Shown: one piece after another, positions 1 through 20,883 of the stretch
How the letters are laid out: each line of letters opens with the position of its first letter
Numbering within the stretch: position 1 is the first letter of the stretch
Virus record (IMG/VR): IMGVR_UViG_3300009158_000243
Coordinates: 1-20,883 of that record
Origin: a virus
DNA length: 20,883 nt
Direction: 5' to 3' (one strand)
Translations under genes and position numbers: made by a program
Notes under the pieces: model-generated
What the model was told of the DNA's origin: nothing
Databases searched by the model: none
The model's input: the letters and a program-made list of their open reading frames with translations, nothing else

Positions 1-202
1 AAATATAATTATTGAATTTGATGGTGTCTATTGGCATAATAAAAATAAAATAGATTCAGGCAAGACTGATAGAGAGAAGAAAAGAGATGAAATTCTTAAA
101 AAGAATAATTTTAAAGTTCTTCATGTAAATGAACTTGACTGGTATAAAAACCCAGAGGAAATAATAAACAAATGTATGACATTCATCTATAATAATCAGT
201 AA
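1..202 (+). CDS. Vsr-like free-standing homing endonuclease, C-terminal fragment (5' end outside window)
   Basis: The reading frame is open from base 2 to the TAA at 200-202, giving 66 visible residues. They begin NIIIEFDGVYWHN and continue with a basic helix (TDREKKRDEILKK), a strand (FKVLHVNE) and a closing helix. This is the end of the PD-(D/E)XK/Vsr-like fold used by phage homing endonucleases of the EDxHD type: an acidic strand followed by G-x-Y-W-H, then a basic helix and a strand. It sits directly before the C-half of a split-intein helicase gene and overlaps its start codon (TAATG at 200-204). Free-standing endonucleases lying between the two halves of a split-intein gene are a known arrangement in marine T4-like phages, so its likely role is spreading this gene break. 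Its N-terminus and catalytic set cannot be assessed here. Confidence 0.75.
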   Translation, partial: NIIIEFDGVYWHNKNKIDSGKTDREKKRDEILKKNNFKVLHVNELDWYKNPEEIINKCMTFIYNNQ

Positions 203-621
203 TGATAACACTAGAACAAATAACAGATTTCATAGAAGAAATGAATAATGATCTCTCTTCTCAAGTAGAAAGAAAATTTACCGAAACTTATGATGTTTCA
301 GATTATGAAGTCTGGACCCAGAATGGATGGATTAGTATTAAAAAAATAGGCAAAACCATTCCATATTTAAAATATAAGATTATAACAGAAAACTATGAAA
401 TAGAATGTGCAGATGACCATATTTTAATTGATTCTGAATGGGACCATATTTTTGCAAAAGATCTTAATAAAGACTCTAGACCTGATGGTATAATTACTGA
501 AAGCGGAGTTGAAATTGTAAGAGAAGTAATAAATACCGGTGAATATGAAGAAATGTTTGATATTGAATTAGATGAAGGCTCTAATCATCTTTTCTTTAGT
601 AATGGTATATTATCTCATAAT
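202..621 (+). other. Intein C-part (IntC, 140 residues, atypically split); splice junction N140/S141 at 621/622
   Basis: The common split inteins have a C-part of about 35-45 residues. Here the C-part is about 140 residues and already contains block B, so the missing N-part should be short: block A with the catalytic first residue, roughly 25 residues. This matches the atypical split class represented by AceL-TerL. The block B threonine of TxxH is replaced (ADDH at 70-73). No LAGLIDADG or HNH endonuclease lies between blocks B and F, so it is a mini-intein with the endonuclease supplied in trans by the preceding gene. The first ~30 residues (rich in Glu, Gln and Asn) look helical. Confidence 0.85.
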
Positions 622-1323
622 TCTATTTGGATGGCTAATGATGCAGCTAATTTCGTTAGAATGGGATATAATACAGTATATGTAACTGCTGAAATGTCAG
701 CAGTTAAGGTTTTAAAAAGAATAGGCTGCAACCTTCTTGGTATTTCGATGATGGATTATCAACAAAAGAGTGTTGATAGAGATTTTATGAAAAGAAGAAT
801 GGATAGAATATCAAATGGTTTAATGCCACCTGGTAAATTATTTGTAAAAGAATTTCCAACTAGTCAAGTTACTGTTATAGAAATAGAAAATTTTCTAAGA
901 AGTTTAGAAGAAAAACAGGGATTTAAATTAAAAGCTGTAATAATTGATTATATTAATATTTTATCAAATTATAGAAATCCTAACAGTGATCAAACTTATA
1001 TGAAAATAAAACAAATAGCAGAAGATCTTCGAGCAATGGCTGTTAGAAATAATTGGCTAATAGTTACAGCAACGCAGCTTAATAGAGGTGCATGGGATTC
1101 ATCTGAAGTAACAATGCAAAGTATTGCAGAGTCCGCAGGGCTTGCACATACTGCAGATACTATGTATGCAATTATACAAGATCAAATGATGCACTCGGCT
1201 AGAGAATATTGGCTAAAAGTATTAAAGATAAGAGATGGAGAAGGCAAAGGCACTAAATGTAGATTTACTATAGACTATAATCACATGAAGCTTTCTGAAA
1301 CTTCTGATTTAATTTCAAATTAG
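202..1323 (+). CDS. 41: C-terminal split intein fused to C-terminal part of T4 gp41-like replicative DNA helicase
   Basis: Residues 1-140 are the C-terminal part of an intein and residues 141-373 the C-terminal part of a gp41 (DnaB-family) helicase. Intein block B is seen at 65-75 (YEIECADDHIL, with H73), block F around 118-132, and block G ends in NGILSHN with H139-N140, followed by the +1 Ser141. The helicase part starts SIWMANDAAN, which aligns with T4 gp41 immediately after the GK of Walker A. Walker B (AVIIDY, 245-250), the TATQLNRGAWDSSEV segment (289-303) and IAESAGL (308-314) follow, all recognisable in T4 gp41. The start codon overlaps the preceding stop. The Walker A lysine and helicase N-domain must come from an N-half gene upstream of the window, joined by protein trans-splicing. 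The product would be the 5'-3' helicase of the phage replisome. Confidence 0.9.
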   Translation: MITLEQITDFIEEMNNDLSSQVERKFTETYDVSDYEVWTQNGWISIKKIGKTIPYLKYKIITENYEIECADDHILIDSEWDHIFAKDLNKDSRPDGIITESGVEIVREVINTGEYEEMFDIELDEGSNHLFFSNGILSHNSIWMANDAANFVRMGYNTVYVTAEMSAVKVLKRIGCNLLGISMMDYQQKSVDRDFMKRRMDRISNGLMPPGKLFVKEFPTSQVTVIEIENFLRSLEEKQGFKLKAVIIDYINILSNYRNPNSDQTYMKIKQIAEDLRAMAVRNNWLIVTATQLNRGAWDSSEVTMQSIAESAGLAHTADTMYAIIQDQMMHSAREYWLKVLKIRDGEGKGTKCRFTIDYNHMKLSETSDLISN

Positions 1324-7240: not shown

Positions 7241-9196
7241 ATGGGATATCCAGTTTATTTAAATGGTCAATTTCCAGGAATAAATTCTAATTCTCAAAAA
7301 GATACACTAAGTATTCTTATAGATGAATTTAGAAAAAGTGGAAAAACAGATGCACAAATTTATAGTATTCTAATTGGAATGGGCATTAGCGCTGATAAAG
7401 CTGCAAATGGCATTAATCATATTAGTGAAACTATACCAAACACATTAAATAGTAATATAGCTAGAACCTTCTTGCAGGTTATAGGAGTTGAAGAAAATGC
7501 ACAAAACAAAAAAATAAATATGAAATTTTCAATTGAAAATCTTGTGAGTAAGATACATGAAACAAAAAATCTTATAGAAGAGCTTAATGCTGCTAATTTT
7601 AATAGATATGGATTTTCTATTAATAAAATTAATGAAATATTAAATGAGTCACTATTATCTTTGGATATAAAAAAGGCTAAATCTATATTAGAATCTATTA
7701 ATGCTCTATCTAATTCTTTAGATAAAGCAACTTTAGATAAATCTAATGCTGAAAATGAATTAGATGTTCTTAAAAAACAGGCATCTTCTCTAGATGATAA
7801 AAAAAATATCATCAAAACAATTGACGAAGCAAATAAAAAACTCAATCTCTTAGGACTGCAGCTGCTAAATACTGATACTGATATTGATGTAGATGCTAAT
7901 GCACTACAACAAAATAATACAGTTAATGCTATTACTGAATCTATTAATACTGTAACTGAATATCTTAATGAAGCAACTAATAGCATAGTTAATATAAATA
8001 ATGAAATTACTGATCTTAAAAAACAAGTTATTTCTATATTAGGTAGAAAAAATATACTTGAAACAGTTTGTATAGCCAGACAAAAACTTCATGAACATGC
8101 ATGGATAGAATCAGTAAAAGAATTATGTCTCTATTTTGATAGAATAAAAAGTGAAAATACTTTTTCTATGATGTTAATGGAATCACTTCAAAATATGAAG
8201 ACTGATAAGTATACTGCATTTAATGCAAAACCAATAGATGCAATAGAAAAAATGATAGAAGAAGGAGAAGATTTTATTAAAGAAAACTATTTAACTTTAA
8301 AAGAATTTTCATGGACCATACCGTTAAAAAATGCTATATCCAAAATTGCAAATGCTTTAAATGAAATGACAGATAGCAGCGTTGCTGTAGTACAAAATAT
8401 ATATAGTCCTGTTCAGGAAAATGAGGACGGTTCTATTACTATATCTCTTTTTGGTAAATTTTATGCAGTTACACTGGACAATATTTCAGAAATAAATGAA
8501 AATCAAAAACCTAATATTAGATTTCTTAAAACATTAGATGCAATGTCTATGTTTTCTATTACCAATGAAGGTTTTGTATATCATGGAAAAAGAAAATCAC
8601 TTTCTCTAGTAGAAAATAAAATTTATGTAGAAAATACACCTCTTTTACAAAATAGTCCTGAAGCTATTATGGCTGCACTTCAAGAAAGCTCACTTACATC
8701 AAGTAATTCTTATCAGGTTGCTGAAAAAATTTCTTTTTTGGCTGAATCAATTGATACTGTTAAAGAGCTTGATATTTTTACATCTTTAGTGTCTAAACAT
8801 CACAAACATGTAGTTGTAAATATTGCTAAATTAAATGAAAATATTTTTATTAATAGAGTTAATAGCTCAATGAATCATAATGAAATTATTAAAGTTAGCA
8901 GTGCTAAAGTTGCACAAAGTTTAGTTAATGAGTATATAAATTTTGATATTACTCCTATTGTTAAAGAAATGCTTAGTAGAGAAGAAAGGCATTTATACAA
9001 TATTAATATAGAAAAAAATAAATTACAGGAGAGTATTGAAATTTTAGAAGATAAAAAGAAAGAAATACTTGCCAATATTGTATTTTATCCAAAAAGCGAA
9101 GAATTAAAAGAATTATACGATGTTGTAAATTCAGAGATTAATAATCAAGAAAAACAACTTCAATTAATTTATCATCAAGAAGGTAAAGGTAATTAA
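7241..9196 (+). CDS. Large helical protein of unknown function, possibly a processed virion component
   Basis: This 651-residue protein is not recognised. It begins MGYPVYLNGQFPG, then a short helical module (about 20-65, with GKTDAQIYSILIGMGIS). A long region with coiled-coil character covers about 95-270. A more mixed central region (about 330-470, including ISLFGKFYAVTLD) follows, and it ends with a charged helical tail (about 585-651). It has no signal peptide or membrane segment. It contains at least five (I/L)-N-E triplets (such as ILNESL, YLNEAT and KLNENI), more than expected by composition and similar to the head-protease sites in this genome, so it could be a prohead or virion protein. 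The late promoter box before it supports late expression. Confidence 0.8.
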   Translation: MGYPVYLNGQFPGINSNSQKDTLSILIDEFRKSGKTDAQIYSILIGMGISADKAANGINHISETIPNTLNSNIARTFLQVIGVEENAQNKKINMKFSIENLVSKIHETKNLIEELNAANFNRYGFSINKINEILNESLLSLDIKKAKSILESINALSNSLDKATLDKSNAENELDVLKKQASSLDDKKNIIKTIDEANKKLNLLGLQLLNTDTDIDVDANALQQNNTVNAITESINTVTEYLNEATNSIVNINNEITDLKKQVISILGRKNILETVCIARQKLHEHAWIESVKELCLYFDRIKSENTFSMMLMESLQNMKTDKYTAFNAKPIDAIEKMIEEGEDFIKENYLTLKEFSWTIPLKNAISKIANALNEMTDSSVAVVQNIYSPVQENEDGSITISLFGKFYAVTLDNISEINENQKPNIRFLKTLDAMSMFSITNEGFVYHGKRKSLSLVENKIYVENTPLLQNSPEAIMAALQESSLTSSNSYQVAEKISFLAESIDTVKELDIFTSLVSKHHKHVVVNIAKLNENIFINRVNSSMNHNEIIKVSSAKVAQSLVNEYINFDITPIVKEMLSREERHLYNINIEKNKLQESIEILEDKKKEILANIVFYPKSEELKELYDVVNSEINNQEKQLQLIYHQEGKGN

Positions 9197-9221: not shown

Positions 9222-9590
9222 ATGAAGTCTAAAGAACACTATGTAAAACCTAAAGAATTTTATGAAGAAATAATAATCTCAAAAAGTAAAAACGCTTTAA
9301 CTCCTAGAGCTCAGGAAATGATGATTAAAATTGCAAATAAGGCTTCACAAAGACTCGTGTATAAAAATCCAGAAGATAGAAAAGACTGTATTTCTGCTGC
9401 ATATCTAGACCTTTTAAAATATTGGAGAAGTTTTAATCCGGAAAAAGGAAGTAATGCTTTTGCATATTTTACAGAAATAGCAAAAAAAGGATTTGCTAAA
9501 GGTTGGAATCAAATACATCCTAAAAAATATAAAGGTACTATAAGTATAGATAGTCATAGCGAAGATTCAGGAGGAATATATACTATTTAA
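9222..9590 (+). CDS. 55: gp55-like late sigma factor
   Basis: The 122-residue protein starts with HYVKPKEFYEEII (compare T4 gp55 NYVNNKELLQAI). It continues to KDCISAAYLDLLKYWRSFNP and EKGSNAFAYFTEIAKKGF (about 68-98), which match the gp55 region around IADGIEA and YKNPHAYITQ. gp55 is a minimal sigma that directs host RNA polymerase to TATAAATA late promoters. This copy is short (T4 gp55 is about 185 residues) and lacks the T4 tail with the clamp-binding SLDFLYE sequence; it ends GGIYTI instead, which may or may not replace it. Late boxes of the right type lie before 7241 and before gp23. No Shine-Dalgarno sequence is present. Confidence 0.8.
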   Translation: MKSKEHYVKPKEFYEEIIISKSKNALTPRAQEMMIKIANKASQRLVYKNPEDRKDCISAAYLDLLKYWRSFNPEKGSNAFAYFTEIAKKGFAKGWNQIHPKKYKGTISIDSHSEDSGGIYTI

Positions 9591-9606: not shown

Positions 9607-10122
9607 ATGAAAATTAAATTATTTAATGAATTTCTTAACGAAGGTATTATAATTAAAGATAAAGCAGGTAAACAACTTTTAGATATTGATACTTTAAGAG
9701 AAGCTGATTTAATGGATAAAGATCTAAGAGGCGCTGATTTATCAGGTGCTGATTTAACTGGTGCTGATTTAACAGGTTCTGATTTAACTGGTGCAAATTT
9801 AAGTGGTGCAAATTTAACTCGTGCAGATTTACACATGTCAAATTTAACAAATGCAGACTTAACTCGTGCAAATTTAACTGACTCTGATATGTCTCAAGTT
9901 AATTTTGCCGGTGCTGATTTAACTGGTGCAAATTTAACTGGTTCTTATTTAAGTAATGCAAATTTAACAAATGCAAATTTAACTGGTGCAAATTTAAAAA
10001 AATGTAGTATTACTAACGTTAATAATGTAAAAGGTGCTAATTTAAAAGGAATTATTTTAACTGGTGCACACTTAGTTAGAGTTGATTTTAGTAATGCTAT
10101 AAATGTACCTGCTAATCTTTAA
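9607..10122 (+). CDS. Pentapeptide-repeat protein with a capsid-targeting N-terminus (predicted internal head protein)
   Basis: The 171-residue protein begins MKIKLFNEFLNEG, which fits the T4 internal-protein targeting peptide (MKTYQEFIAEA) and offers a gp21 cleavage site, L10-N11-E12 before G13. From about 31 to 165 it is built of some 27 pentapeptides of the A-(D/N)-L-x-x type, for example ADLTG and ANLTG, which form a right-handed quadrilateral beta helix. Known members such as MfpA and Qnr mimic DNA and bind gyrase. I infer that this protein is packed in the head, trimmed, and possibly delivered with the DNA; a gyrase or topoisomerase target is only a hypothesis. The gene ends in a TAATG overlap with gp4 (10120-10124). 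The 15-base DNA repeats indicate growth by repeat duplication. Confidence 0.85.
   Translation: MKIKLFNEFLNEGIIIKDKAGKQLLDIDTLREADLMDKDLRGADLSGADLTGADLTGSDLTGANLSGANLTRADLHMSNLTNADLTRANLTDSDMSQVNFAGADLTGANLTGSYLSNANLTNANLTGANLKKCSITNVNNVKGANLKGIILTGAHLVRVDFSNAINVPANL
9697..10101 (+). repeat. Tandem 15-base coding repeats (pentapeptide array)
   Basis: About 27 imperfect 15-base units, such as GGTGCTGATTTAACT and GGTGCAAATTTAACT, encode the A-(D/N)-L-x-x array. Several neighbouring units are nearly identical at the DNA level, which points to recent slippage or unequal recombination rather than only protein-level constraint. Confidence 0.9.
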
Positions 10123-10601
10123 TGAATAACATAAAAAAAATAAAGCCTACATTTAAATCAGGTTTTAAGCAGAGTTATTTTCAGCCTACTAATATGCAAA
10201 AGTATGTTGGAGAATTTCCTATTATATGTAGATCATCATGGGAAAAAAAGTTTGCTATTTTTTGTGATACTAATCCATCCATAATTAAATGGAGTTCTGA
10301 GCCTGTAGAAGTTAAATATTATAATATTTTAGATAAAAAAATGCATAAATACTATCCTGATTACTTTATTATTGTTAAAAGAGGCGATATTGAAGAAAAA
10401 TGTTTAGTAGAAATAAAACCATCATCACAGTTAAAAAAACCAGAAGTTCCTAAAAAGTTAACAGAAAAAGCAGTAACAAATTTTAAACATGCATATAATA
10501 CTTATGTTAAAAATTTATGCAAAATTGAAGCTTTAGAAAAATTTGCAATTGATAGAGCAATGAAAGTTTTAATAATTACTGAAAATAGTAAATTGATATA
10601 A
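10122..10601 (+). CDS. 4: gp4-like head completion protein with nuclease-type fold
   Basis: The 159-residue protein has the features of the T4 gp4 (gp50/65) head completion family: PTNMQKYVG (22-30), ICRSSWEKKFAIFCD (35-49), IKWSSEPVEVKYY (55-67), HKYYPDYF (75-82) and VEIKPSSQ (96-103). The spaced acidic residues E41, D80 and E97-x-K99 form a PD-(D/E)XK/TnsA-like pattern, so the nuclease-type site looks intact. In T4 the protein is needed to finish filled heads before tail joining. It is translationally coupled to both neighbours by TAATG overlaps (10120-10124 and 10599-10603). Confidence 0.85.
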   Translation: MNNIKKIKPTFKSGFKQSYFQPTNMQKYVGEFPIICRSSWEKKFAIFCDTNPSIIKWSSEPVEVKYYNILDKKMHKYYPDYFIIVKRGDIEEKCLVEIKPSSQLKKPEVPKKLTEKAVTNFKHAYNTYVKNLCKIEALEKFAIDRAMKVLIITENSKLI

Positions 10602-11341
10602 TGCCTAATACTCCACTTCTTATTAAAATTCATGAGTCTAGAGTAGATAATATAAATGAATATCTTAAAATTAAAAAGATAAGAGATAATTTTATCAAAG
10701 AGGCTAAAGGTTTTGATAGTGCATCAACTGCAGTATTGAATTGGATAGAGGATGATCAAAATATAAAAAATTTATCTATTAAAAAAATTAAAAATAATGA
10801 TAGATTTCAGCCTGGCAAAATGTATTATATGGAATATCCTAATCCATTATGGCCTGAAGAACCTTTTGATGCAAAGCCTTTGATTATATGTTTAGGCGAA
10901 ACAGGAAAAGATTCAAATATACTATCAGCAGGATTTCAAGGCAAGTTTGATAAAAAATATATCTATCAACCAGGCTATATGATAGGAATTAATATTAATT
11001 TTCTTCCTGAGATAATAAAATCTAATTTTCTTCAAATGTGGTTTGATTTTTTTAAACCACAACTAATGCAGCAGTTTAAATTAGAATTTAAACATGCTAT
11101 AAAACAAAAATCTTTAAATTTCATATATAGTGATCTTTTTCCTATAGAAAAAAAATTCTATTTTTCTTATGCTGTCAGAATGTACAAAAAAACACAAATC
11201 AGATCAGCATCCGAATTAACTTATGAAAATTGGTATTTAGCAAGTTGTATTTCCCCTAAATTTTTTATTGGGACCAATTTGGTAAAAATAAATGAAAATT
11301 ATAAAAAATATATAAAAAGCAAGCATATCAAATATGCATAA
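10601..11341 (+). CDS. Hypothetical protein, 246 residues, next to gp4 and the portal gene
   Basis: I do not recognise this protein securely. Its centre, with PGKMYYMEYPNP (about 71-82), a KPLIICLGE strand and YQPGYMIGININFLP (about 121-135), resembles a small family of structural proteins in marine T4-like phages that have a G-x-M-Y...Y-x-P...P-L-(I/V)...G-(I/L)-N-x-x-(F/Y)-L-P core. The first 60 residues are helical and charged, and the C-terminus is basic. The place beside gp4 suggests a role in head completion or DNA-end handling, such as gp2 in T4, but this is speculation. It overlaps the gp4 stop by one base. Confidence 0.75.
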   Translation: MPNTPLLIKIHESRVDNINEYLKIKKIRDNFIKEAKGFDSASTAVLNWIEDDQNIKNLSIKKIKNNDRFQPGKMYYMEYPNPLWPEEPFDAKPLIICLGETGKDSNILSAGFQGKFDKKYIYQPGYMIGININFLPEIIKSNFLQMWFDFFKPQLMQQFKLEFKHAIKQKSLNFIYSDLFPIEKKFYFSYAVRMYKKTQIRSASELTYENWYLASCISPKFFIGTNLVKINENYKKYIKSKHIKYA

Positions 11342-11352
11342 ATTAAGTATTT

Positions 11353-13035
11353 ATGGCTGGATTTTCAGATAGAAGAGGTTCTTTAACTAAAGGCAACCCC
11401 GTATCAGATGCTCTTAAGAGATTAAGTAGATTAGGAATGCATTATGATGACATGGTCTTAAAAAATTCTAGAGCCGTAGGATTTACAGAAAATCAGATAG
11501 GATATGGTATGTTTAATCCAATGGGTTCTGATTCTGATGACATGTATTATCTATTTGCTTCATTATCAATGACTGATATTTCTAGTAAAAAAAATATTTC
11601 TTATTTTGATAAAAGCTATCAAAAGAAAAGAGATCAACTTAGAAATTTTGCAGTTCAAGATGAAATAGAAGATATTCTTGATACCATAGCAGATGAAGCA
11701 ATTGTATTTGATGAATCTAATTATTTTGCATATCCTATTATTAATACTGCAGTCAGTAAAGATGTAAAAGATGGTTTAATAGACTCATACAATAAATTAT
11801 ATGAATATTTTGGATTTAGTGATGGCCAATCAGTATGGAACTATTTTCGTAAATGGTTAGTAGATGGTTATTTATCTTTTGAGATTATTTATGATAATGA
11901 ACAAAAGCAAATAATAGGGTTTAAAGAACTAGATCCTGTTTCTCTTATGCCTGCTGTCGATAAAGAGTCAGGTAAGAAAATTTGGATTCAATATAAAGGA
12001 GGAGGTCCTAAAGAAAGAGTTCTTTTTGATTCTCAAATAATTTATTTAGCATATTCATCAGTAAATTCTCCTTCTAGAGTTTCTTATGTAGAAAGACTAA
12101 TTAGATCTTTTAATCTTCTTAGAATCATGGAACATTCTAGAATTATTTGGGCTGTTACTAATGCAAGTTTTAAAATGAAATTTGTTATTCCAGTTGGTGG
12201 TAAATCTAAAACTAGAGCAAAACAATCACTTGCACAATTAATGAATAATTATCGAGAGGTTGTTAATTTTGATATGCAATCAGGTGAAATTCAAACGAAT
12301 GGTAAGCCTATGATGCAATTTCATAAAGAATATTGGCTGCCTTCTAAAGACGGAGAACAACCTGAAATTGATACATTAGCAAATGATGGACCACAATTAT
12401 CTGATACTGAAGCTCTTCAATGGTTTTATGATAAATTAAAACTTGCTTCTAAAATTCCATTTAGCAGATTTGATAAAGATTCTCCAGCCACTTATGAAAT
12501 GGCAGCAGAAGGCATGAATAGAGAAGAAATTAAATTTGCAAAATTTATTAATAGATTAAGATCTATTTTTCAGGAAATTTTAGTTAAGCCACTATATCTT
12601 CAAATATGTTTAACTTATCCTGAATTAGAAGATGACACTAATTTCAAAGGAAATTTAACTATTAAATATAATAAAGATAATGTTTTTGAAGAATTAAAAC
12701 AAATGGAATTGGCTTCTAAGAGAATTGATTTTATTTCTACTGTTAGAAGTGGACTTGTTGAACAAGATAAAGATCTTAACGAAATACCTTTCTTTAATTT
12801 AGATTTCTTAATTAAAAAATATGGAGGCTTTACAGAAGAAGATTTAAAGAAAAATGAAAAAATGAAAAAAATCGAAGTATATGTAAAGCAAGGCTATTCT
12901 GTAGTTGATGCAGAAAAAATAGCAGATGGAGGAGATCCTAAAAAATATAAAATAAAAACAGATACAGAAGCTAGTGATGGAGAAGCTAGTGATAAAGATT
13001 TAAGTGATGAAGATATACCAAATCTTGAACTTTAA
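11353..13035 (+). CDS. 20: Portal vertex protein, gp20-like
   Basis: The 560-residue protein (T4 gp20 is 524) matches the portal of T4-like phages. Matching stretches are YQKKRDQLRNFAVQDEIEDI (88-107), LLRIMEHSRIIWAVTNASF (about 256-274), EYWLPSKDGEQPEIDTLAND (about 325-344) and LKLASKIPFSRFDKD (365-379). It forms the dodecameric ring at the head vertex through which DNA enters and which starts head assembly. The C-terminus is a charged, low-complexity tail with ASDGEASDKDLSDEDIP. The ATG at 11353 lies in an A/T-only leader. In T4 the genes 67 and 68 follow 20; here only 56 bases separate it from the protease gene. Confidence 0.93.
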   Translation: MAGFSDRRGSLTKGNPVSDALKRLSRLGMHYDDMVLKNSRAVGFTENQIGYGMFNPMGSDSDDMYYLFASLSMTDISSKKNISYFDKSYQKKRDQLRNFAVQDEIEDILDTIADEAIVFDESNYFAYPIINTAVSKDVKDGLIDSYNKLYEYFGFSDGQSVWNYFRKWLVDGYLSFEIIYDNEQKQIIGFKELDPVSLMPAVDKESGKKIWIQYKGGGPKERVLFDSQIIYLAYSSVNSPSRVSYVERLIRSFNLLRIMEHSRIIWAVTNASFKMKFVIPVGGKSKTRAKQSLAQLMNNYREVVNFDMQSGEIQTNGKPMMQFHKEYWLPSKDGEQPEIDTLANDGPQLSDTEALQWFYDKLKLASKIPFSRFDKDSPATYEMAAEGMNREEIKFAKFINRLRSIFQEILVKPLYLQICLTYPELEDDTNFKGNLTIKYNKDNVFEELKQMELASKRIDFISTVRSGLVEQDKDLNEIPFFNLDFLIKKYGGFTEEDLKKNEKMKKIEVYVKQGYSVVDAEKIADGGDPKKYKIKTDTEASDGEASDKDLSDEDIPNLEL

Positions 13036-13091
13036 TTCTAAATACTTATTTTTTTAAAAAAATTTTAATATATAAAAAATAAAACAAAACT

Positions 13092-14921
13092 ATGTCTAAC
13101 TTATTAATCTTAGAACGTTCCGGCGATACTCTATCTCAACAATATGATAATAACCATATTATCCTACAAGGGACTTTTACACAATTTGGTATAAAAAACA
13201 AAAATGGCAGAATTTATGAAGAAAAAGAATTCCTGCCACACCTTAAAGAACTTCAAGAAAAAGTTAAAAAAGGAAAACTTCTTGGCGAATTAGATCATCC
13301 TACTAAATTTGATATTTCTTTACAAAATGTTTCTCATGTTATTGAAGAACTAGAATATGATTCTAGTAAAAAACAAGTAATAGGTAAAATCAAATTATTA
13401 AACACAGATAAAGGTAAACAGGCTCAAGCATTAGTAGAGGCCGGTGTACCATTACATATTTCATCTAGAGCAGCTGGCAATGTAGGTGCAAATGGTAATG
13501 TTACAATACAAAAACTTTTTACCTATGATCTTGTTGCAGATCCCGGTTTTGCAGCAGCTGAACTTAATAGAGTAAATGAATCTTTAGGCTTTCAGGAAAA
13601 TGAAAATTTATTTATTTATGAAATAGATGAATCTGAAATAGATGATACAACATACAAATCAAAAAAAATAGAAAATATGAATAACTATGTCACAGCTGAG
13701 GACTTTAATTTGTATTCTGAATACATTAAAGAACAATTTGAATCTTTAAATAGTCAAAAAGAATCAGCACAATTTAATAAGCTAATTGAATATACAGATC
13801 ATTTAGCTGAAAATTTAAATAAACTTTTTAAATATACTGAATATTTAGCCGAAAACCTTGACAGCAATATTTCACATAATGATTATGTTGCAGAAAAAAT
13901 TGATTCTATTAAAGAATACTGTAATTATTTATCAGAAAATGGAAATAATAGTATTTTTTATTCTGAGTATATGGCTAAACAAACTAATAAATTAGTAGAA
14001 TATGTTGACTATATTTCAAAGCAACTTGATAAAAATATTTCATATAGTGAATATCTTGCAGAAAGCCAAAATTCTACAATAAACTATACTAATTATTTGG
14101 CAGAAAAGGTAGATCAAAATGTTTCATATAGTGAATACCTTGCAGAAAACCAAAATTCTACAATAAACTATGCTAATTATTTGGCAGAAAAAGTAGATCA
14201 GAACGTTTCATACGGAGAATACCTTGCAGAAAACCAAAATAATATGATTAACTATTCTGAGTATATTAAAGAAAATGTTGAAAATATAGGTAAATATGCT
14301 AACTATTTAGCAGAAAATATAAATGGAGATTTTGAAGATACTCCATCTGTTAAATCTCATGAGACTATAGAAAATTCATCTAATAAATCAATAATTTCTA
14401 AGATTGATAGTATACTTGAAACAGTTAAGAATAAGAATCTACAAAATGATGTAGATGATAAGCACTTTATGAGATTTTTAGATTCTACCAAAAGAAATGA
14501 ATTTGAATCTCTTAATGAAGATGTACAAAATAAAATAGTTGAAACATTTGCAAATAGTAAATATATGTCTTTTGCTGATGCAAATAGAATATGGGATTCA
14601 TGTTTTGCAAATGCACCATATACTCCAACACTTAATTATATAGATAATATGCCTTCTAAATATAGGTCACTTTATGAATCATTAAGTTCTGACAAGAAAA
14701 ATGCTATCTATAAGCAGTCAAAAGTATATCCATTAGAAACACAGTATCAAATAGATAATTTTTGGCAAACTAGAGATCTTAGACCTGCGCAATTTAAAAT
14801 TGAAAAAATAAACGAAAACGAAAACGTGGTTGGATTAGAAGAAAAATCTTCAGCAGGTGTTTCATTACAAGTAGTAAATGATGTTAGAGATGCTTTAAAT
14901 GCAAGGTTTAAAAATATATAA
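13092..14921 (+). CDS. 21: Prohead protease gp21 with a long scaffold-like (gp22-like) C-terminal extension
   Basis: Residues 20-165 match T4 gp21: GTFTQFGIKNKNGRIY (27-42), LLGELDHP (63-70, catalytic H69), GVPLHISSRAAG (118-129, catalytic Ser in SSR) and FTYDLVADPGFA (143-154). T4 gp21 is only about 212 residues; this protein has 609. After a linker come thirteen 14-residue repeats (234-415). A helical C-terminal region (about 455-609) follows and ends VVNDVRDALNARFKNI, resembling the end of T4 scaffold gp22. No separate gp22 gene lies before gp23. RVNE at 160-163, at the domain border, could be a self-cleavage site. M196 (base 13677) starts MNNYVTAEDF and could be an internal start giving scaffold alone. 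The fusion to gp22 is an inference from ending and position. Confidence 0.88.
   Translation: MSNLLILERSGDTLSQQYDNNHIILQGTFTQFGIKNKNGRIYEEKEFLPHLKELQEKVKKGKLLGELDHPTKFDISLQNVSHVIEELEYDSSKKQVIGKIKLLNTDKGKQAQALVEAGVPLHISSRAAGNVGANGNVTIQKLFTYDLVADPGFAAAELNRVNESLGFQENENLFIYEIDESEIDDTTYKSKKIENMNNYVTAEDFNLYSEYIKEQFESLNSQKESAQFNKLIEYTDHLAENLNKLFKYTEYLAENLDSNISHNDYVAEKIDSIKEYCNYLSENGNNSIFYSEYMAKQTNKLVEYVDYISKQLDKNISYSEYLAESQNSTINYTNYLAEKVDQNVSYSEYLAENQNSTINYANYLAEKVDQNVSYGEYLAENQNNMINYSEYIKENVENIGKYANYLAENINGDFEDTPSVKSHETIENSSNKSIISKIDSILETVKNKNLQNDVDDKHFMRFLDSTKRNEFESLNEDVQNKIVETFANSKYMSFADANRIWDSCFANAPYTPTLNYIDNMPSKYRSLYESLSSDKKNAIYKQSKVYPLETQYQIDNFWQTRDLRPAQFKIEKINENENVVGLEEKSSAGVSLQVVNDVRDALNARFKNI
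13791..14336 (+). repeat. Thirteen tandem 42-base units (14-residue repeats) in the gp21 extension
   Basis: The units follow Y-x-x-Y-(L/V/I)-A-E-x-x-x-x-x-I-x, for example YSEYLAENQNSTIN and YTNYLAEKVDQNVS. The spacing is exactly 14 residues, or two heptads, without gaps over 182 residues. Bases 14043-14126 and 14127-14210 are an 84-base tandem duplication with only about six differences. An outlying unit, YSEYIKEQFESLNS, lies upstream at residues 208-221, separated from the array by 12 residues. The periodic hydrophobic positions suggest a long helical rod. Confidence 0.92.
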
Positions 14922-14942
14922 TAAATTAAATAATGAAACATA

Positions 14943-16628
14943 ATGAAACACGTTAAAACATTTGATAAATTTATAGCAGAAGGATCTAGTGGCAATATCT
15001 TGAAAAAAGGATTTTATTTTTCTTCTCTAAGCAAAGGACATGAAATCAGAAATAAAAAAACAGGAAAGACTTATGTGGTGCAAAGTGTCGGTTCCGACAG
15101 TGCAGAGATTAAAGATAAAAATTCTTCTAAGTTTATAGGATTCACGATTATGTCTCTAAAAGACTATGAACCTGTAGATTCTACACTTTATGAAGATTGG
15201 TATAAAGAACCAGAAGACAGTGATGAGTATGATGAATTTATGGTTACAAACGAGGCTGCAAGAATACCTTCTAATATTTTAGATTTTGCTAAAAGAAAAG
15301 GAAGTTATGCAACTTCTTTAGTAAAGAAAGCTGCAACATGGGCTGAAAAAGCTGGTAAATATATTAGCGGTGGTACTGCTATCGGTAAAGATTACATGAC
15401 TATAGTTTTAGATATGAAACATCAAGGTTCTGAGATTTATATTAATTTAAATGATGAAACTATTGAATTATTCGGAGAAGAAGTTACTGATGCTAAATCA
15501 TTTGCTAAAGTTTTAAGCGCAAATGCTAGTGTAAATGAATCTCATTTTAAAGTTGGAGATAAGGTTAAAATGTCACATGGTGGAACTGGTGTAATTTTTT
15601 CTTTAGACAAAGCAGATGGAGCAGAAGATGAAAAGTACTACAATGTTAAATTACCTAATGGTGATATACACAAACATTCACCAAATGAACTTACTAAAGA
15701 ATATTTGCTCGATCCTAATTTAAATGAAGCACTTTCTTCATCAATTCTATCAAGTATTCTTGATTTAAAGTATGCAAATAAAGATCTTTTAAAACAGGTA
15801 TATGATAATTCAAAAATTCAACTAGATAAAATTAAAGATAGTGATCTCACTGTAGTAACTCCTCGTGAGGCTTCTAGGTGGAAAGGCAACGGTCTTGTAT
15901 TTTATGTTAGTTTAAGGGAAAAGCAAGATCCTTATACAGATGGTAATGTAATTCCAGCTAATTCTCTTTTAGCTGTTGTTACAGGCGAGAGAGCATTTAT
16001 TACTGTTAAAACTATCAGAAATCTTAATTCTTATAGAAAAACTTTTGCAAGTGTTGATAGGATTAATAGAGGTGACAGTAGTATTGGCATTGATAAGACA
16101 CAAGGTCTTTGGAATGTAAAAAGAATTGCTGAAGTTTCTGATATTGCATACATTCTTGATAAAAATGTGTTACCTAATACAAACCGTATTACTGCGTATC
16201 GAGCTGATCTTGTTAAAGGTGCAACTGCAATGAGACAGGCTAAAGATATTAGAGATGAAAATCTAGATAGATATAAACAAATATTAGCTACTAGATTTGA
16301 AAATGATGGTATCGATATAGCAATACAAAATGCCGTTAATAAAGTTAATGAGATAGTAGCAGGTGCTTTAAAAGTAATGAGAATAGGAAAATACGGTGAT
16401 ATCACTGCTGCTATGGATGGAAATAGAGAAATTAGTATGGATGATTATAGCAGATGGATATCTAGACTTATGGAAAGATATAAACGATATGTTTCGTATG
16501 CAGAAGCTTCACAGAAAACGCAGGATTATGAAGATACTTATTATAAAGGTAAAAAATTCGAAGAGGCTTCTGAAATTAAAAAACATATTGCAATATTAAA
16601 TAATTGGAGTATTCCAACAGAAAATTAA
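14943..16628 (+). CDS. Multidomain internal head protein (possible polyprotein) with capsid-targeting N-terminus
   Basis: The 561-residue protein starts MKHVKTFDKFIAEG, a targeting peptide with a gp21 site I11-A12-E13 before G14. Further E-P1 sites lie between apparent domains: TNE104/A105, VNE199/S200 and LNE262/A263. The pieces are 14-104 (a small beta-rich domain), 105-199, 200-262 (SH3-like, with KVGDKVKMSHGGTG and KLPNGDIHKHSPNEL) and 263-561 (a larger, mixed domain with VVTPREASRWKGNGL). None is assigned a function. It lies where T4 has scaffold gene 22. The start region is a tandem duplication: TAATGAAACA occurs at 14931-14940 and again at 14941-14950, and only the second ATG opens the long frame. 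Confidence 0.82.
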   Translation: MKHVKTFDKFIAEGSSGNILKKGFYFSSLSKGHEIRNKKTGKTYVVQSVGSDSAEIKDKNSSKFIGFTIMSLKDYEPVDSTLYEDWYKEPEDSDEYDEFMVTNEAARIPSNILDFAKRKGSYATSLVKKAATWAEKAGKYISGGTAIGKDYMTIVLDMKHQGSEIYINLNDETIELFGEEVTDAKSFAKVLSANASVNESHFKVGDKVKMSHGGTGVIFSLDKADGAEDEKYYNVKLPNGDIHKHSPNELTKEYLLDPNLNEALSSSILSSILDLKYANKDLLKQVYDNSKIQLDKIKDSDLTVVTPREASRWKGNGLVFYVSLREKQDPYTDGNVIPANSLLAVVTGERAFITVKTIRNLNSYRKTFASVDRINRGDSSIGIDKTQGLWNVKRIAEVSDIAYILDKNVLPNTNRITAYRADLVKGATAMRQAKDIRDENLDRYKQILATRFENDGIDIAIQNAVNKVNEIVAGALKVMRIGKYGDITAAMDGNREISMDDYSRWISRLMERYKRYVSYAEASQKTQDYEDTYYKGKKFEEASEIKKHIAILNNWSIPTEN

Positions 16629-16640
16629 AAAGATAAATAT

Positions 16641-16907
16641 ATGATTAAATCATTCGATGCGTTTAAATTAAACGAAGGTACACCTATTAGAAATCTGTCA
16701 CAAGAAGATAATGACATTTATCTAGAAGCAAAAGAATTATTAAAAAAAGAATTTGAAAACTTTATTAAAGATGTTAGTCCAAAGTTAAAAAAAATTGCTA
16801 ATAAAGCAACATATAAAGGCGAAGGTAGCATTATGATAAATTTGGAAAAACAACTTTCTGGTCAATATTTAATTGATGATTTTTATAATAAGTTCATGGG
16901 CTATTAA
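16641..16907 (+). CDS. Small internal head protein with capsid-targeting N-terminus
   Basis: The 88-residue protein begins MIKSFDAFKLNEG and has a gp21-type site L10-N11-E12 before G13. Removing the peptide would leave a 76-residue basic helical protein (KELLKKEFENFIKDV, then KLKKIANKATYKG), similar in size and charge to the small internal proteins of T4. No domain is recognised. Its start codon follows the preceding gene by 12 bases, so it is probably co-transcribed with it. Confidence 0.8.
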   Translation: MIKSFDAFKLNEGTPIRNLSQEDNDIYLEAKELLKKEFENFIKDVSPKLKKIANKATYKGEGSIMINLEKQLSGQYLIDDFYNKFMGY

Positions 16908-16936
16908 TTTTTAAAAAAGTTGTAAAGCTGAAAAAC

Positions 16937-16983
16937 AATATATAAAATGAAATAAAAGTTAATAAATAATATATAAAATGAAA
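16937..16983 (+). repeat. Direct repeat of AATATATAAAATGAAA (16937-16952 and 16968-16983)
   Basis: Two exact 16-base copies lie 31 bases apart. The second contains the start codon of the 16978 gene; the first contains a matching ATG that opens no long frame. They surround a segment that is also shared with the spacer after that gene (AAATAAAAGTTAATA at 16950-16964 and 17618-17632). Confidence 0.8.
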
Positions 16984-17604
16984 CATATAAAACTATTTGA
17001 AGACTTCGTAAACGAAGCTCTTTCTTCTAAGAAGCCTAACGAAATTATAACTATTGATTTAGATATGGTTTGGAATGATTCAAATACAGAAGAAGATAAA
17101 GCCACAAGAGATGCTTTCAAAAAATACAACATTAAAGTAAAAGAGGTTAAAAGCAACCCTGGAACTTTTAACGTAACTGGTAAGAAAAAAGACATCTTAG
17201 GCTATCTACAGAGCGAATTTTATGAAATGGATGCTGATGATATCAAAGAATTCTATCCTGAACTCTTAGAAGGAAATAGTGTTAATGAAAACGTATATCC
17301 TTCTAAAAAGGATGGTGAAATAAGTGCTTTTGGCCGTTCTGAAGAAATTGGCCGTATAGATCTTAAATCAAAAGGTAATACTATAGGGACTCTTTTAGTA
17401 TGGATGCAACCAAAATACGACTTTAATACTAAAGGTTATGATGAAAACTATTGGGAAGTAGGTGCTTCTTATACATCATATCCTTTATCCGATCCATCAG
17501 GAAGTACTGGTACTGGTGTATGGTCTTTACGTGGCTATAAGTCTACTAAAGAAGAAGCTGTAAAAGCTGGTGAAGAATTCATGAAAAGTATTAAATTGTC
17601 TTAA
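16978..17604 (+). CDS. Internal head protein with capsid-targeting N-terminus, two domains
   Basis: The 208-residue protein begins MKHIKLFEDFVNEA, almost the same targeting peptide as the 14943 protein, with a cleavage site V11-N12-E13 before A14. Two more possible sites, LLE98/G99 and VNE104/N105, divide it into an N-domain (about 14-98, with IITIDLDMVWND and a helix KDILGYLQSEFYEM) and a C-domain (about 105-208, rich in Gly, Ser and Tyr, with VWSLRGYKSTKEEAVKAGEEF). The function is unknown. The sequence NENVY at 103-107 recurs in the major capsid protein. The gene lies between two similar A/T-rich spacers, as if it were an insertable cassette. Confidence 0.82.
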   Translation: MKHIKLFEDFVNEALSSKKPNEIITIDLDMVWNDSNTEEDKATRDAFKKYNIKVKEVKSNPGTFNVTGKKKDILGYLQSEFYEMDADDIKEFYPELLEGNSVNENVYPSKKDGEISAFGRSEEIGRIDLKSKGNTIGTLLVWMQPKYDFNTKGYDENYWEVGASYTSYPLSDPSGSTGTGVWSLRGYKSTKEEAVKAGEEFMKSIKLS

Positions 17605-17731: not shown

Positions 17732-19408
17732 ATGCACAATCAACTAATTAATGAAGCTGAAGTTGTAAAAACTTGGGCGCCGGTGATTGAAGAGGCTACA
17801 GGCATTAATGACAAGAATAAGCTTTCTTGGATGTCTAAATATTGCCATTTTCACCAACTAAATGAAAACGTATATAACCAAGTTCACCTTAATCCAAATA
17901 TGAATTTATATGGCATGGGTGCAGTTGCCTTCCCTGGTGATCCTGGTTTAAATACTGGGTTTCCAACCCAAACTGCAGGATCAGGTGATAAACCTTTTAG
18001 TTTACTTCCACTTGCTATGCAAGTTGCAGCGCAAACTGTAGGATTAGATCTTGTACCAGTTGCTCCAATGAGTGGCCCACTTGGTATTCTTACCTATTTA
18101 GATTTTATTTATCAAGGCGGTCGTCTTGATAGTTTAGAAACACCTTTAATGGTTAGAATCGACGGTGGTAATACTACTTATACTTCTGGCTATGCTGCAT
18201 CATCTTTTGTAGGTAATACTGTTTATTACTTAAGGGATTCAGGTGCAACTACTCGATATGCACTAACTTTTATTGGTCTTTCTCGTATTGATGGATGGCC
18301 TATTTTTAAAATTAATGTATGGGCTTCTTCGGCTCAGCAGCCTAATGGCACTACGGGTGCAGTTACTCTAGCTGCTGCAGTTGACGGCGGAGACATCTAC
18401 ACTGCAGCTTCAGGCGGAACTAAAATTGCAGATCTTACTGCAGGTGCGGCTCTTCTTGTTAAAGCGTTAGAAGATCACATTACAGGTTTCTCTGGACAAG
18501 GTCTTGCAGGATTCGGTGGTACAGCGAACAACGTAACTTCTAATCAACCTTACTTAAGACAAAATGGTGAAAACACTGGCGATAACGTTATGGGTCTTTC
18601 ATTATTTAATAAATCAGTTGAAGCTTTTACCTACCAGGTAGCAGCAGCTGTAACTCGTGAACAGGTACAAGATTTAAAACAATTCGGAATTGATGCAGTT
18701 GCTCAAGTAGAAGCTGTATTAGTAAATGAATTAACACAATCTATTAATAAACTGATTCTCGGAAGACTTTTCGAACTTGGTACTACTAATGCTGAAAAAG
18801 TATTTTCACTAGACGGTACTAATTTAAATCTGTATGTTGCTTCAACTTCAACCTCAGCTTCACTTGCATTAGGTAATGACTGGGAAGGTAATGCTGTAAG
18901 CATTTCTACCTCTTCTACAGTTCCAACTTCAGGTGATAATGCAGGAACACTACAGAGAAGAATTCTTTCTAAAATTCTTGCAGCTTCTAATTTAATTGCA
19001 ATTCGTGGACGTAGAGGTGCTGCTAATTTTGCTGTAACTAATGGACAAGTAGCTTCTGCATTACAAGATATTGCAGGATTTATGACATATCCTCTAGCTA
19101 ACACAATTAATCAGGCAGGTGGTTCACTTTACCCGGTTGGTTCTCTTGCAGGTGTAACTGTATATGTTGACCCTAACATGAGCTGGACTGATACTAGAAT
19201 TTGCGTAGGCAGAAAAGGTGATGGAAATTCTCCTGGTTTAGTTTTTATGCCATATCTTATGGCTGAAAGCGTACAAACTATTGCTGAGCTGACAATGGCT
19301 CCAAAAATTGCAGTGAAAAGCCGTTTCGCCTTAGTAGACGCAGGTTTCTTCCCATTCCTTTACTACTTTACAATGAGAGTAAGATTTGACAATTACCAAA
19401 TTATCTAA
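17732..19408 (+). CDS. 23: Major capsid protein, gp23-like
   Basis: The 558-residue protein (T4 gp23 is 521) matches the T4-like capsid protein: VVKTWAPVIEEATGIND near the start (compare ELLNKWKPLLEG), VPVAPMSGPLGILTYLDFIY (compare CGVQPMNSPTG), AAAVTREQVQDLKQFGIDAV, RGRRGAANFAV and the ending MAPKIAVKSRFALVDAGFFPF. It forms the HK97-fold hexamers of the head. Near the N-terminus LINE8/A9 is a gp21-type site. The likely cut that removes the whole propeptide is QLNE45/N46, at about the place of the T4 cut at residue 65. Codon use is more G/C-rich than in the neighbours, as expected for a highly expressed gene. It has its own late promoter and terminator. Confidence 0.96.
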   Translation: MHNQLINEAEVVKTWAPVIEEATGINDKNKLSWMSKYCHFHQLNENVYNQVHLNPNMNLYGMGAVAFPGDPGLNTGFPTQTAGSGDKPFSLLPLAMQVAAQTVGLDLVPVAPMSGPLGILTYLDFIYQGGRLDSLETPLMVRIDGGNTTYTSGYAASSFVGNTVYYLRDSGATTRYALTFIGLSRIDGWPIFKINVWASSAQQPNGTTGAVTLAAAVDGGDIYTAASGGTKIADLTAGAALLVKALEDHITGFSGQGLAGFGGTANNVTSNQPYLRQNGENTGDNVMGLSLFNKSVEAFTYQVAAAVTREQVQDLKQFGIDAVAQVEAVLVNELTQSINKLILGRLFELGTTNAEKVFSLDGTNLNLYVASTSTSASLALGNDWEGNAVSISTSSTVPTSGDNAGTLQRRILSKILAASNLIAIRGRRGAANFAVTNGQVASALQDIAGFMTYPLANTINQAGGSLYPVGSLAGVTVYVDPNMSWTDTRICVGRKGDGNSPGLVFMPYLMAESVQTIAELTMAPKIAVKSRFALVDAGFFPFLYYFTMRVRFDNYQII

Positions 19409-19498: not shown

Positions 19499-20883
19499 AT
19501 GAACTATGAAGAGCTGATAAAAAATAACAGGCTGATCAAGATTAGTATGATGATCAGCGATAGGAATGTAAGCAAAAATGAAAAATTTGCAAGCTGGTTG
19601 CATCTAAAAGTTAATGGAGAATTTACTCTGAGAGAAAAGGCTATTCTTATTAAAAATGGTTTTATCGATTTGCCTCTCTGTATGTATTGTGGATCTAATC
19701 CTGTAAAATTTCAAATCAAAGATCCTTATTTGAGTAATATATGTTCAGATCCTGAATGTTGTAAAATACATTTTAATGAAAAACGTAAGAATACTTCAAT
19801 TAAAAAATATGGAACTGCTCATCCTACGCAAAGTTCTATAGTCAAAGAAAATTTTAAAAAGAAGTCACTTGAAAAATGGGGAGTTGATAACCCAGCCAAA
19901 GCTGATGAGATTAAACTCAAAATAGGTAATACTGTCAAAGAAAACAAAATGACTATCTTTATAGAAAATAATCCTAATTTAGATATATTAGAAAAAATAG
20001 ATTCTTTTACATATAAAATCAAATGTAAATCATGTGGACATGAACAAGTAGAACAAAGACAGTTAATAAGAATTTATGCAAAGAGTTCCAAAATAATATG
20101 TGAAAAATGTAACCCTTCAATACAAATTAAAACGTCGATTCTTGAAGATTCAATATCAGATTTTATTTCCTTACATTATAAAGACGAATTTATTAAGAAT
20201 TATAATGGCTTTAATTTTACAAAAAAAGAAGCAGACATATACATACCTGATTTATCTTTAGTTATAGACATTAACGGACTATATTGGCACTCTGAACTAT
20301 TTAAAGAAAATAAATATCATATTAATAAAAAAATAGAATTTGAAAAAGCTGGAATAAAATTTATACATTTGTGGGAAGATGACCTATTAAATCCAATAAA
20401 AAGAGAAATTGTAAATTCACGTCTTCTTAACTTATTTGGATTAAGTGTTAAAATGTATGCCAGAAAATTAAATATTTTTTTTAGCAAATACAATAAAGAA
20501 TTTAAAGATTTTCTAGACAAGAATCATTTACAAGGATATGTAAATGCTTCAGAATATTATTGTCTTAGAGACTCTAATGGAATTTTAATATCTTTAATGA
20601 GTTTTAAATTTTCTAAAGGTATTTGGGAACTTGTAAGATTTTGTACATTAAAAAATGTAACTGTGACAGGCGGAGCTTCAAGACTTATTAATGCTTTTTT
20701 AGAAACTCATCCAGGTAAAAAGTTATTTAGTTACGCTGATTTAGATTGGAGTTCTACTAATATGAATAATGTATATGATTCTTTAGGTTTTGTAAGATCT
20801 AGAATTACAGCACCTGGATATTTTTGGGTTCGTAGAGGGCAACGCTTTAGTAGAAATTCATTTATGAAAAATAAAATACAACA
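19499..20883 (+). CDS. Vsr-like homing endonuclease, free-standing (3' end outside window)
   Basis: The frame is open from ATG 19499 to the window end, giving 461 residues. Zinc-ribbon cysteines appear in CMYCG (61-65) with CSDPECC (82-88), and in CKSCG (176-180) with CEKC (201-204). Two short DNA-binding type repeats are KKYGTAHPTQ (102-111) and EKWGVDNPAK (125-134). The PD-(D/E)XK/Vsr-like core is ADIYIPDLSLVIDINGLYWH (245-264) followed by FIHLWEDD (288-295). A C-terminal domain (about 317-440, with GGASRLINAFL and FSYADLDWSS) is often attached to this endonuclease family and looks acetyltransferase-like, though its role is unknown. It would cut alleles lacking the insert next to gene 23. 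A weak late-like box, TATAAATT, lies at 19469-19476. Confidence 0.85.
   Translation, partial: MNYEELIKNNRLIKISMMISDRNVSKNEKFASWLHLKVNGEFTLREKAILIKNGFIDLPLCMYCGSNPVKFQIKDPYLSNICSDPECCKIHFNEKRKNTSIKKYGTAHPTQSSIVKENFKKKSLEKWGVDNPAKADEIKLKIGNTVKENKMTIFIENNPNLDILEKIDSFTYKIKCKSCGHEQVEQRQLIRIYAKSSKIICEKCNPSIQIKTSILEDSISDFISLHYKDEFIKNYNGFNFTKKEADIYIPDLSLVIDINGLYWHSELFKENKYHINKKIEFEKAGIKFIHLWEDDLLNPIKREIVNSRLLNLFGLSVKMYARKLNIFFSKYNKEFKDFLDKNHLQGYVNASEYYCLRDSNGILISLMSFKFSKGIWELVRFCTLKNVTVTGGASRLINAFLETHPGKKLFSYADLDWSSTNMNNVYDSLGFVRSRITAPGYFWVRRGQRFSRNSFMKNKIQ

Follow-up and report, generated by a model that had tools for sequence, protein, structure and literature searches.

Probable T4-type head-targeting tags on unrelated proteins of a T4-like phage and its giant relatives

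Why should four proteins that have nothing else in common begin with the same short peptide? The question is raised by IMG/VR record IMGVR_UViG_3300009158_000243, a 20,883-base fragment of a T4-like phage, referred to here as the window. The four open reading frames (ORFs) start at positions 9607, 14943, 16641 and 16978, all where the initial annotation had placed them, and their translations begin MKIKLFNEFLNEG, MKHVKTFDKFIAEG, MIKSFDAFKLNEG and MKHIKLFEDFVNEA, respectively. These N-terminal tags have the general form M..[FY]xxF..[ILV]xE↓[AG], where the arrow marks the predicted cut. Each has a pair of aromatic residues three apart (F6/F9, F7/F10, F5/F8 and F7/F10, in order of position) and a hydrophobic-x-Glu motif followed by a small residue, with Val at P3 only in the tag at 16978. 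For three of the four proteins Pfam gives nothing below E = 0.01, and the fourth is a pentapeptide-repeat protein. We consider it very probable that the tag is a head-targeting peptide of the same kind as the T4 capsid-targeting sequence (CTS), a modular element placed before unrelated cargo and cut off where a cut site is present, the cargo presumably being ejected into the host.

The same phage is represented by a 33.9-kb contig (L001/G012), whose capsid protein is 100% identical to that of the window. Ranked by capsid protein, its long relatives begin with the 462-kb huge phage LR756500.1 (60% identity) and continue with the Lak megaphages, Tenacibaculum phages pT24/PTm1, PAU and others. 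The 33.9-kb contig carries three more tags, MEHIKLFEEFIDEQ, MKHIKLFEEFSSEE and MKRVKLLEEFIAEQ, on genes that come shortly after the capsid gene and its trailing homing-endonuclease-like ORF. Tagged genes make up 7 of 16 in the half of the contig that carries the head genes and 0 of 19 elsewhere (p = 0.002). Within the window, the three tagged genes said to lie beside the protease and capsid genes are all in the interval between the protease-scaffold and capsid genes.

The shared starts exceed what chance would give. Across 14 related genomes, a regular expression for the tag matches at 73 of 2143 start methionines compared with 28 of 7017 internal ones (odds ratio 8.8, p = 2e-25), and many of the internal matches are the capsid protein's own cut site. 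At the position after the Glu, which the expression leaves free, 68% of tags have Ala, Gly, Ser or Asn; for other LxE motifs the figure is 26.5% (p = 4e-16). The expression misses the spelling used by PAU (0 PAU tags), which is recovered by a pattern-free test. This test compares, two at a time, proteins that have no detectable homology to each other and counts the pairs in which 7 or more of the 12 N-terminal residues agree, with internal methionines as the control. By this test 5 of 465 pairs share their starts on the window phage's contig, compared with 0 of 325 at internal methionines. There are 13 such pairs in G006, 169 in LR756500.1 (37 proteins), 71 in G029 (17 proteins), 57 in PAU (19 proteins), two in P-SSM2 and one in T4 (IPII/IPIII); the counts for LR745206.1 (signal peptides) and G032 (MxxVGDK starts) are inflated and represent upper bounds. 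No sharing pairs were found in crAss001, phiKZ or HTVC008M, and the internal-methionine controls are near zero, with a maximum of 16 of 51,040 pairs in LR756500.1.

Tags of this kind are widespread among viral contigs. The exact DNA pattern for MKHIKxFE[DE]F, the same ten-residue core as in the tag at 16978, occurs in at least 119 stretches of IMG/VR contigs, and their tagged proteins, together with ten from a second pattern, form 68 clusters by cargo similarity; the 73 proteins found by the regular expression form 51. In 257 Gb of bacterial and archaeal genomes the core pattern has one match, on a 254-kb contig of a Bacteroidetes metagenome-assembled genome, with S77 and Gp23 on that same contig. 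The S77 protease is encoded on ten of the 11 tagged contigs longer than 150 kb that were first tested, and gp23 on nine; the contig with the protease alone has it at the contig end, and the exception, G032 (168 kb), is tag-rich nonetheless. As this sample consists of tagged contigs only, it shows compatibility rather than association.

The spelling of the tag differs from genome to genome: MKHIKLFEDFVNE in the window's group, MIKxFDEFxNES in G006 and G007, MKYIKEYEEFLLE in LR756500.1, MKTLSKLYEAKLNEA in PAU, where a MKT[LI]xxLYE-type start is common to 19 proteins, MITKFKIFE in G032, MKxFxxFLTE in S-CREM2 and MKTYQEFIAE in T4. The proposal that the window proteins bear the same peptide as T4 therefore holds for the targeting aromatics, which are kept, but each phage has its own version. 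In the CTS of T4 IPIII, residues 4 and 7 govern targeting and residues 8 and 10 govern processing, and Asp at residue 10 blocks cutting while targeting is kept (PMC9026906). The tags retain the two targeting aromatics (compare T4 Tyr4 and Phe7), usually followed by a prohead-protease site that resembles the phage's own capsid cut, which reads [LI]xE↓[NS] in close relatives and LNE↓N in the window. Cutting after (L/I)xE, as originally proposed, accords with the motif in all four window tags, allowing for the one Val. Among tags sampled by their decapeptide core, an adjacent LxE is found in ∼60% on contigs with T4 head genes and ∼40% on contigs of at least 60 kb without them. Since the site is frequent and not universal, 'targeted and cut' has to be split into two functions; the division of targeting and processing residues in T4 predicts just such an arrangement, in which the aromatic core is conserved and the cut site is optional. 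In T4 itself, the 54-residue hypothetical protein gp61.1 (L133:18966-19130) starts MKTFKEFIKED, which resembles the CTS closely except that Lys-Glu-Asp stands at the cut, and from its sequence is a candidate for an uncut or poorly cut internal protein.

Virions of other phages contain tagged proteins, according to published virion proteomes. That of cyanophage S-CREM2 (OR473000) lists 52 proteins of 219 coding sequences (PMC10665884). A scan of the genome with M-x(1,3)-[FL]-xx-F-[LMFIV]-x-E matches exactly five genes: gp6 (SAM hydrolase, MKDFDSFLEE), gp13 (MKDLHSFLTE), gp14 (APH-like kinase, MKRFDAFLTE), gp136 (MQTFSMFFSE) and gp154 (cytidylyltransferase, MKNFSSFLTE). All five products are on that list (p = 6e-4, or 4e-5 when the 24 structural proteins are left out). 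Other NMNAT/cytidylyltransferases detected in virions are tagged too, in S-SCSM1 (MKSFLQFLKE↓A) and S-SZBM1 (MRFRQFIIE↓A). In PAU, 14 of the 19 tagged genes lie near the capsid cluster (p = 2e-9), and gp142 and gp154, the two proteins annotated 'internal capsid protein' in a 31.7-kb stretch, are both tagged (p = 0.004), the basis of that annotation being unstated in the record. With a T4-type protease, portal and capsid protein in the window, targeting residues retained and tagged proteins in cyanophage virion proteomes, a T4-type packaging tag on unrelated cargo, as first suggested, is the best reading of this locus. The Cas9-like nuclease gp12 (L376:7704-10313) is also among the S-CREM2 virion proteins; near its N-terminus it has a tag-like peptide, LRFASFMAE↓A, of which FASFMAE↓A falls at about residues 19-26. 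What precedes the peptide is either an N-terminal extension or the result of a mis-called start.

Several observations weigh against this reading. About 40% of the tags sampled by core have no adjacent LxE, which is where the original claim of cutting falls short, and the presence of LxE has no significant tie to a T4 protease or capsid gene on the contig (p = 0.17). The absence of head genes from a fragment says little, however, because G029 and G032, which have none, are tag-rich and encode homologues of proteins from T4-like reference genomes. The T4 late promoter TATAAATA is not enriched upstream of tagged genes, and in the pattern-free test tag sharing is slight or absent in the T4-like phages HTVC008M and MaF61. 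Several tagged proteins resemble ordinary metabolic enzymes (RimK-like ATP-grasp, glycosyltransferase). The proteome test is small and comes from a distant cyanophage, its p-value is somewhat flattering as the pattern was set after the virion list had been seen, and the S-CREM2 authors note that CsCl preparations can carry soluble proteins (PMC10665884).

The interval between the protease-scaffold and capsid genes behaves as a cargo slot. It holds three tagged genes in the window and in L002, L004, L006 and L007, some of which differ, and one slot gene each in L002 and L004 keeps the aromatic core with the cut motif further downstream or absent. A single tagged gene occupies it in L003, L008, L021, L029 and L030, and it is empty in L009, L011, L012, L014, L017, L018, L020, L023, L024 and LR756500.1. 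The one exception found is L027, with two untagged slot genes; elsewhere among the sampled relatives nearly every slot gene is tagged. Because its contents differ although the capsid proteins of L002-L007 are 93-94% identical to that of the window, the slot turns over fast. This position, with three of the four window genes, is also T4's place for scaffold gene 22, and PAU gp152, annotated 'scaffolding', is tagged. The tagged proteins might then be mostly scaffold or core components consumed in head maturation, like T4 gp22, gp67 and gp68, and not delivered cargo. We regard this as unlikely, as the scaffold function appears already to be fused to the protease, the slot varies among phages with near-identical capsid proteins and is empty in others, and many tagged proteins are enzymes. 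Nor do the tagged proteins have the enrichment in internal protease sites expected of a degraded scaffold, and mature S-CREM2 virions yield tagged enzymes.

It is considerably less probable that the tag sends proteins to a phage-made site other than the prohead (a replication compartment, a membrane or the ribosome, for example). Tags on enzymes without an obvious virion role, the position of the LR756500.1 tags far from the capsid gene and the frequent absence of the cut site would fit such an address, but both parts of the tag resemble the T4 CTS and the P1' residue fits the protease specificity. In the window phage and in PAU the tags cluster around head genes, and this clustering and the virion proteomes likewise point to the prohead.

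That the tags are relics of common ancestry on diverged paralogues is scarcely tenable: some tagged proteins are indeed paralogues, for example five leucine-rich-repeat proteins in LR756500.1, but the tagged proteins fall into 51 and 68 separate clusters, the pattern-free test left out pairs with detectable homology, and one domain can be found behind different tags and in different fusions. Codon usage bears on whether the signal is a peptide at all. Identical codons at shared residues are rarer than expected in LR756500.1 (0.695 compared with 0.777) and G006 (0.485 compared with 0.571), about as frequent as expected in G029 (0.631 compared with 0.585) and more frequent than codon usage predicts in PAU (0.69 compared with 0.50), where some recent copying of tags is possible. 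Since codon agreement is mostly no higher than codon usage predicts, the tag is conserved mainly at the protein level. A nucleotide-level signal, for translation initiation or as a DNA repeat, would suit the PAU excess but is very improbable in view of the other three genomes and of conserved positions that are amino-acid classes (F/Y, I/L/V) at varying offsets.

We infer the following course for a T4-type head-targeting tag in this phage. During prohead assembly the aromatic core [FY]xx[FY] would attach the protein to the scaffold core, which would lead to its enclosure in the head. Where [ILV]xE is present, the prohead protease would remove the tag after the Glu, in the same maturation step in which the capsid protein is trimmed at LNE↓N. 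Once freed, the proteins would remain in the head with the DNA and presumably be ejected into the host, to act early there, with defences or host metabolism as possible targets. The tag would be a module preceding many unrelated domains, with the protease-scaffold/capsid interval as a fast-changing slot in the window's group. Host defences are the target of T4 internal proteins: IPI blocks GmrSD (PMC3012670), and IPIII is required for infecting ECOR17 (PMC9391042). By analogy, the cargo is likely to act early in the host. The wider claim that any cargo gene can acquire the tag agrees with the diversity of tagged proteins, from which acquisition is deduced. For giant T4-like phages at large, we lean towards a general cargo-loading code, in which one genome-specific peptide, co-evolving with the phage's own scaffold, would stand on 20-40+ unrelated proteins (enzymes, leucine-rich-repeat and pentapeptide-repeat proteins among them), several of them perhaps multi-domain cargo split by the protease, so that the virion would be an injectable protein kit readable from the genome.

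The cargo itself shows signs of domain shuffling. The fourth window cargo consists of the tag, a domain A, the sequence VNE↓NVYPS and a domain B; domain A stands alone behind a tag in L218, as does domain B in L002 and L004. In the second cargo, the conserved domain directly follows [LI]xE↓[AS] in the homologues that cover the boundary, whereas the N-terminal part is peculiar to each, and the C-terminal domain recurs in other tagged proteins (relatives from loci fetched for the tag). This cargo has no relative in the public phage collection, and a pattern search of viral contigs gave its own contig only. Polyproteins as a general explanation of the cargo were rejected, since tagged proteins are not enriched in internal sites; for the second and fourth cargoes only, the motifs leave a protease-split polyprotein as a possibility. 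Structure models of these two (mean pLDDT 54 and 53.5, respectively) were too weak for use and gave no PDB match at E ≤ 0.001.

Cargo domains in relatives include leucine-rich repeats, RimK-like ATP-grasp, PNK3P phosphatase, a VWA/metallopeptidase pair, GH108 lysozyme, NUDIX, cupin, glycosyltransferase and cytidylyltransferase. On the jumbo contig L295, a nucleotidyltransferase-like protein (motif GRFMPVHNGH) carries the tag MKHIKLFEEFISE, and similar cargo thus appears to stand behind two spellings, in this protein and in S-CREM2 gp154, although the sequence match is short. Separately, some non-capsid proteins, in L229 (a G001_48557 homologue), L070, L075 and L292, contain a segment resembling the capsid protein's mature N-arm (GMGAVxxPGNPGTxxxFxxQxxGSGDIP). 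These proteins start with or contain a DUF3008-like stretch (SKxQQRLMxxAYALKKG), and the segment is possibly a second kind of head-localising sequence.

The features of the window that bear on the tags are collected in Table 1. All nine strong [ILVM][NTASH]E[ASGN] sites of the protease-scaffold fusion lie past residue 160, and its scaffold-like part (window 13740-14330) consists of near-repeats (YSEYLAENQNSTINYTNYLAEKVDQNV...) with LAE↓N or LAE↓K every ∼14 residues. Further upstream, an untagged 651-residue protein (7241-9196) with no convincing family match has 16 [ILVM]xE[ASGN] sites, ∼25 per 1000 residues compared with an average of ∼6, and from this density may be a prohead-protease substrate, for example a core protein. 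The homing-endonuclease-like ORF directly behind the capsid gene occupies 19499-20881; in PTm1 an annotated Hef-like homing endonuclease likewise lies close behind the capsid gene. A DnaB-like helicase is apparently encoded by a fractured gene (window 1-660, and upstream on the longer contig at 25026-26824). Its N-part ends GKCFSKDTILKIRNKKTGEIEQIPIISFMERLKIKQ, with ∼38 residues of N-intein, followed by a free-standing homing-endonuclease-like ORF, and its C-part starts with ∼120 residues of intein ending SHN↓S. From these sequences it appears to contain a split intein with an unusually short N-half.

Table 1. Head-gene region of the window: genes, predicted tags and possible internal protease sites
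Feature	Position	Strand	Basis or remark
Late sigma factor (gp55-like)	9222..9590	+	phrog_234 E=9.3e-15
Tagged cargo 1, 171-residue pentapeptide-repeat protein	9607..10122	+	Pfam PF00805 E=3.6e-47; between late sigma factor and gp4-like gene
N-terminal tag MKIKLFNEFLNE↓G	9607..9645	+	predicted cut after Glu12
Head-closure / TnsA-like nuclease (gp4-like)	10122..10601	+	phrog_218 E=4e-37, PF08722
DNA end protector (gp2-like)	10601..11341	+	phrog_429 E=3.6e-10
T4-like portal (gp20)	11353..13035	+	PF07230 E=1.8e-74
Prohead protease (gp21-like, S77) fused to scaffold-like region, repeated LAE↓N sites	13092..14921	+	PF03420 E=1.1e-12; phrog_207 E=6e-36
Tagged cargo 2, 561-residue protein, no Pfam family	14943..16628	+	C-terminal domain (from about residue 263) conserved, after LNE262↓A
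N-terminal tag MKHVKTFDKFIAE↓G	14943..14984	+	predicted cut after Glu13
LNE↓A, possible internal protease site at start of cargo 2 conserved domain	15720..15731	+	alignment of homologues
Tagged cargo 3, 88-residue protein	16641..16907	+	no family; no homologue found outside the phage's own contig
N-terminal tag MIKSFDAFKLNE↓G	16641..16679	+	predicted cut after Glu12
Tagged cargo 4, 208-residue two-domain protein	16978..17604	+	domain A (to about residue 100) + domain B
N-terminal tag MKHIKLFEDFVNE↓A	16978..17019	+	predicted cut after Glu13
VNE↓N, possible internal protease site between domains A and B of cargo 4	17281..17292	+	[IV][NS]E↓[NS]VYP[ST] junction also in L002, L004
Major capsid protein (gp23-like), predicted propeptide cut FHQLNE45↓NVYNQ	17732..19408	+	PF07068 E=1.3e-34

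If the tags are packaging signals of the T4 kind, the protein content of a phage head would be predictable from sequence through the genome's own tag, and hundreds of uncharacterised giant-phage genes would become testable as probably injected, early-acting proteins. The tagged set would be a likely place for new anti-defence proteins, and the presence of SAM hydrolase, kinases and cytidylyltransferases in cyanophage virions would be explained. Packaging tags would also become available for several phage groups besides T4.

Among known systems, the closest is the T4 CTS of IPI-III (MKTYQEFIAE↓A), likewise a short N-terminal peptide on unrelated proteins, with aromatics three apart and a hydrophobic-x-Glu cut followed by a small residue; the window genome also has a T4-type protease, portal and capsid protein. 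T4 shares its CTS among two to three internal proteins, whereas the window phage and its relatives place theirs on 5 to about 40 unrelated proteins, spell it per genome and often omit the cut site. The four window proteins have no match to the internal-virion-protein PHROGs that other tagged proteins match, and none of them is an IP homologue. That the tag alone suffices to package a foreign protein is shown for T4 only (PMC9026906). By description, the packaging signal of P1 DarB is similar in that N-terminal residues suffice to send a foreign protein into the head and the cargo is antirestrictive, but it belongs to another phage type, is 30 residues long and has a single known cargo (PMC9024508). 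The ejection-protein propeptides of SPN3US/phiKZ-type giant phages are also trimmed from internal proteins after Glu by the prohead protease during maturation; they are mostly longer than 100 residues with no shared short tag (PMC5694885), and phiKZ has no N-terminal sharing in our test. The cyanophage virion enzymes (SAM hydrolase, APH-like kinase and cytidylyltransferase/NMNAT) bear the same kind of tag, and the portions of the reports used here treat them as unexplained virion-associated proteins or possible contaminants and do not mention it (PMC10665884, PMC9602691). The CTS had already been put forward, in a 2022 review of T4 work, as a means by which T4-like phages take up various proteins (PMC9026906), and full-text searches of the open-licence literature gave no account of tags like these, either in giant phages or on the virion enzymes of cyanophages. 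What is new here, by comparison with these systems, is that the tagging reaches such a scale and is spelled genome by genome, that there is a slot for tagged cargo, that core and cut site come apart in nature, and that the tags agree with published virion proteomes.

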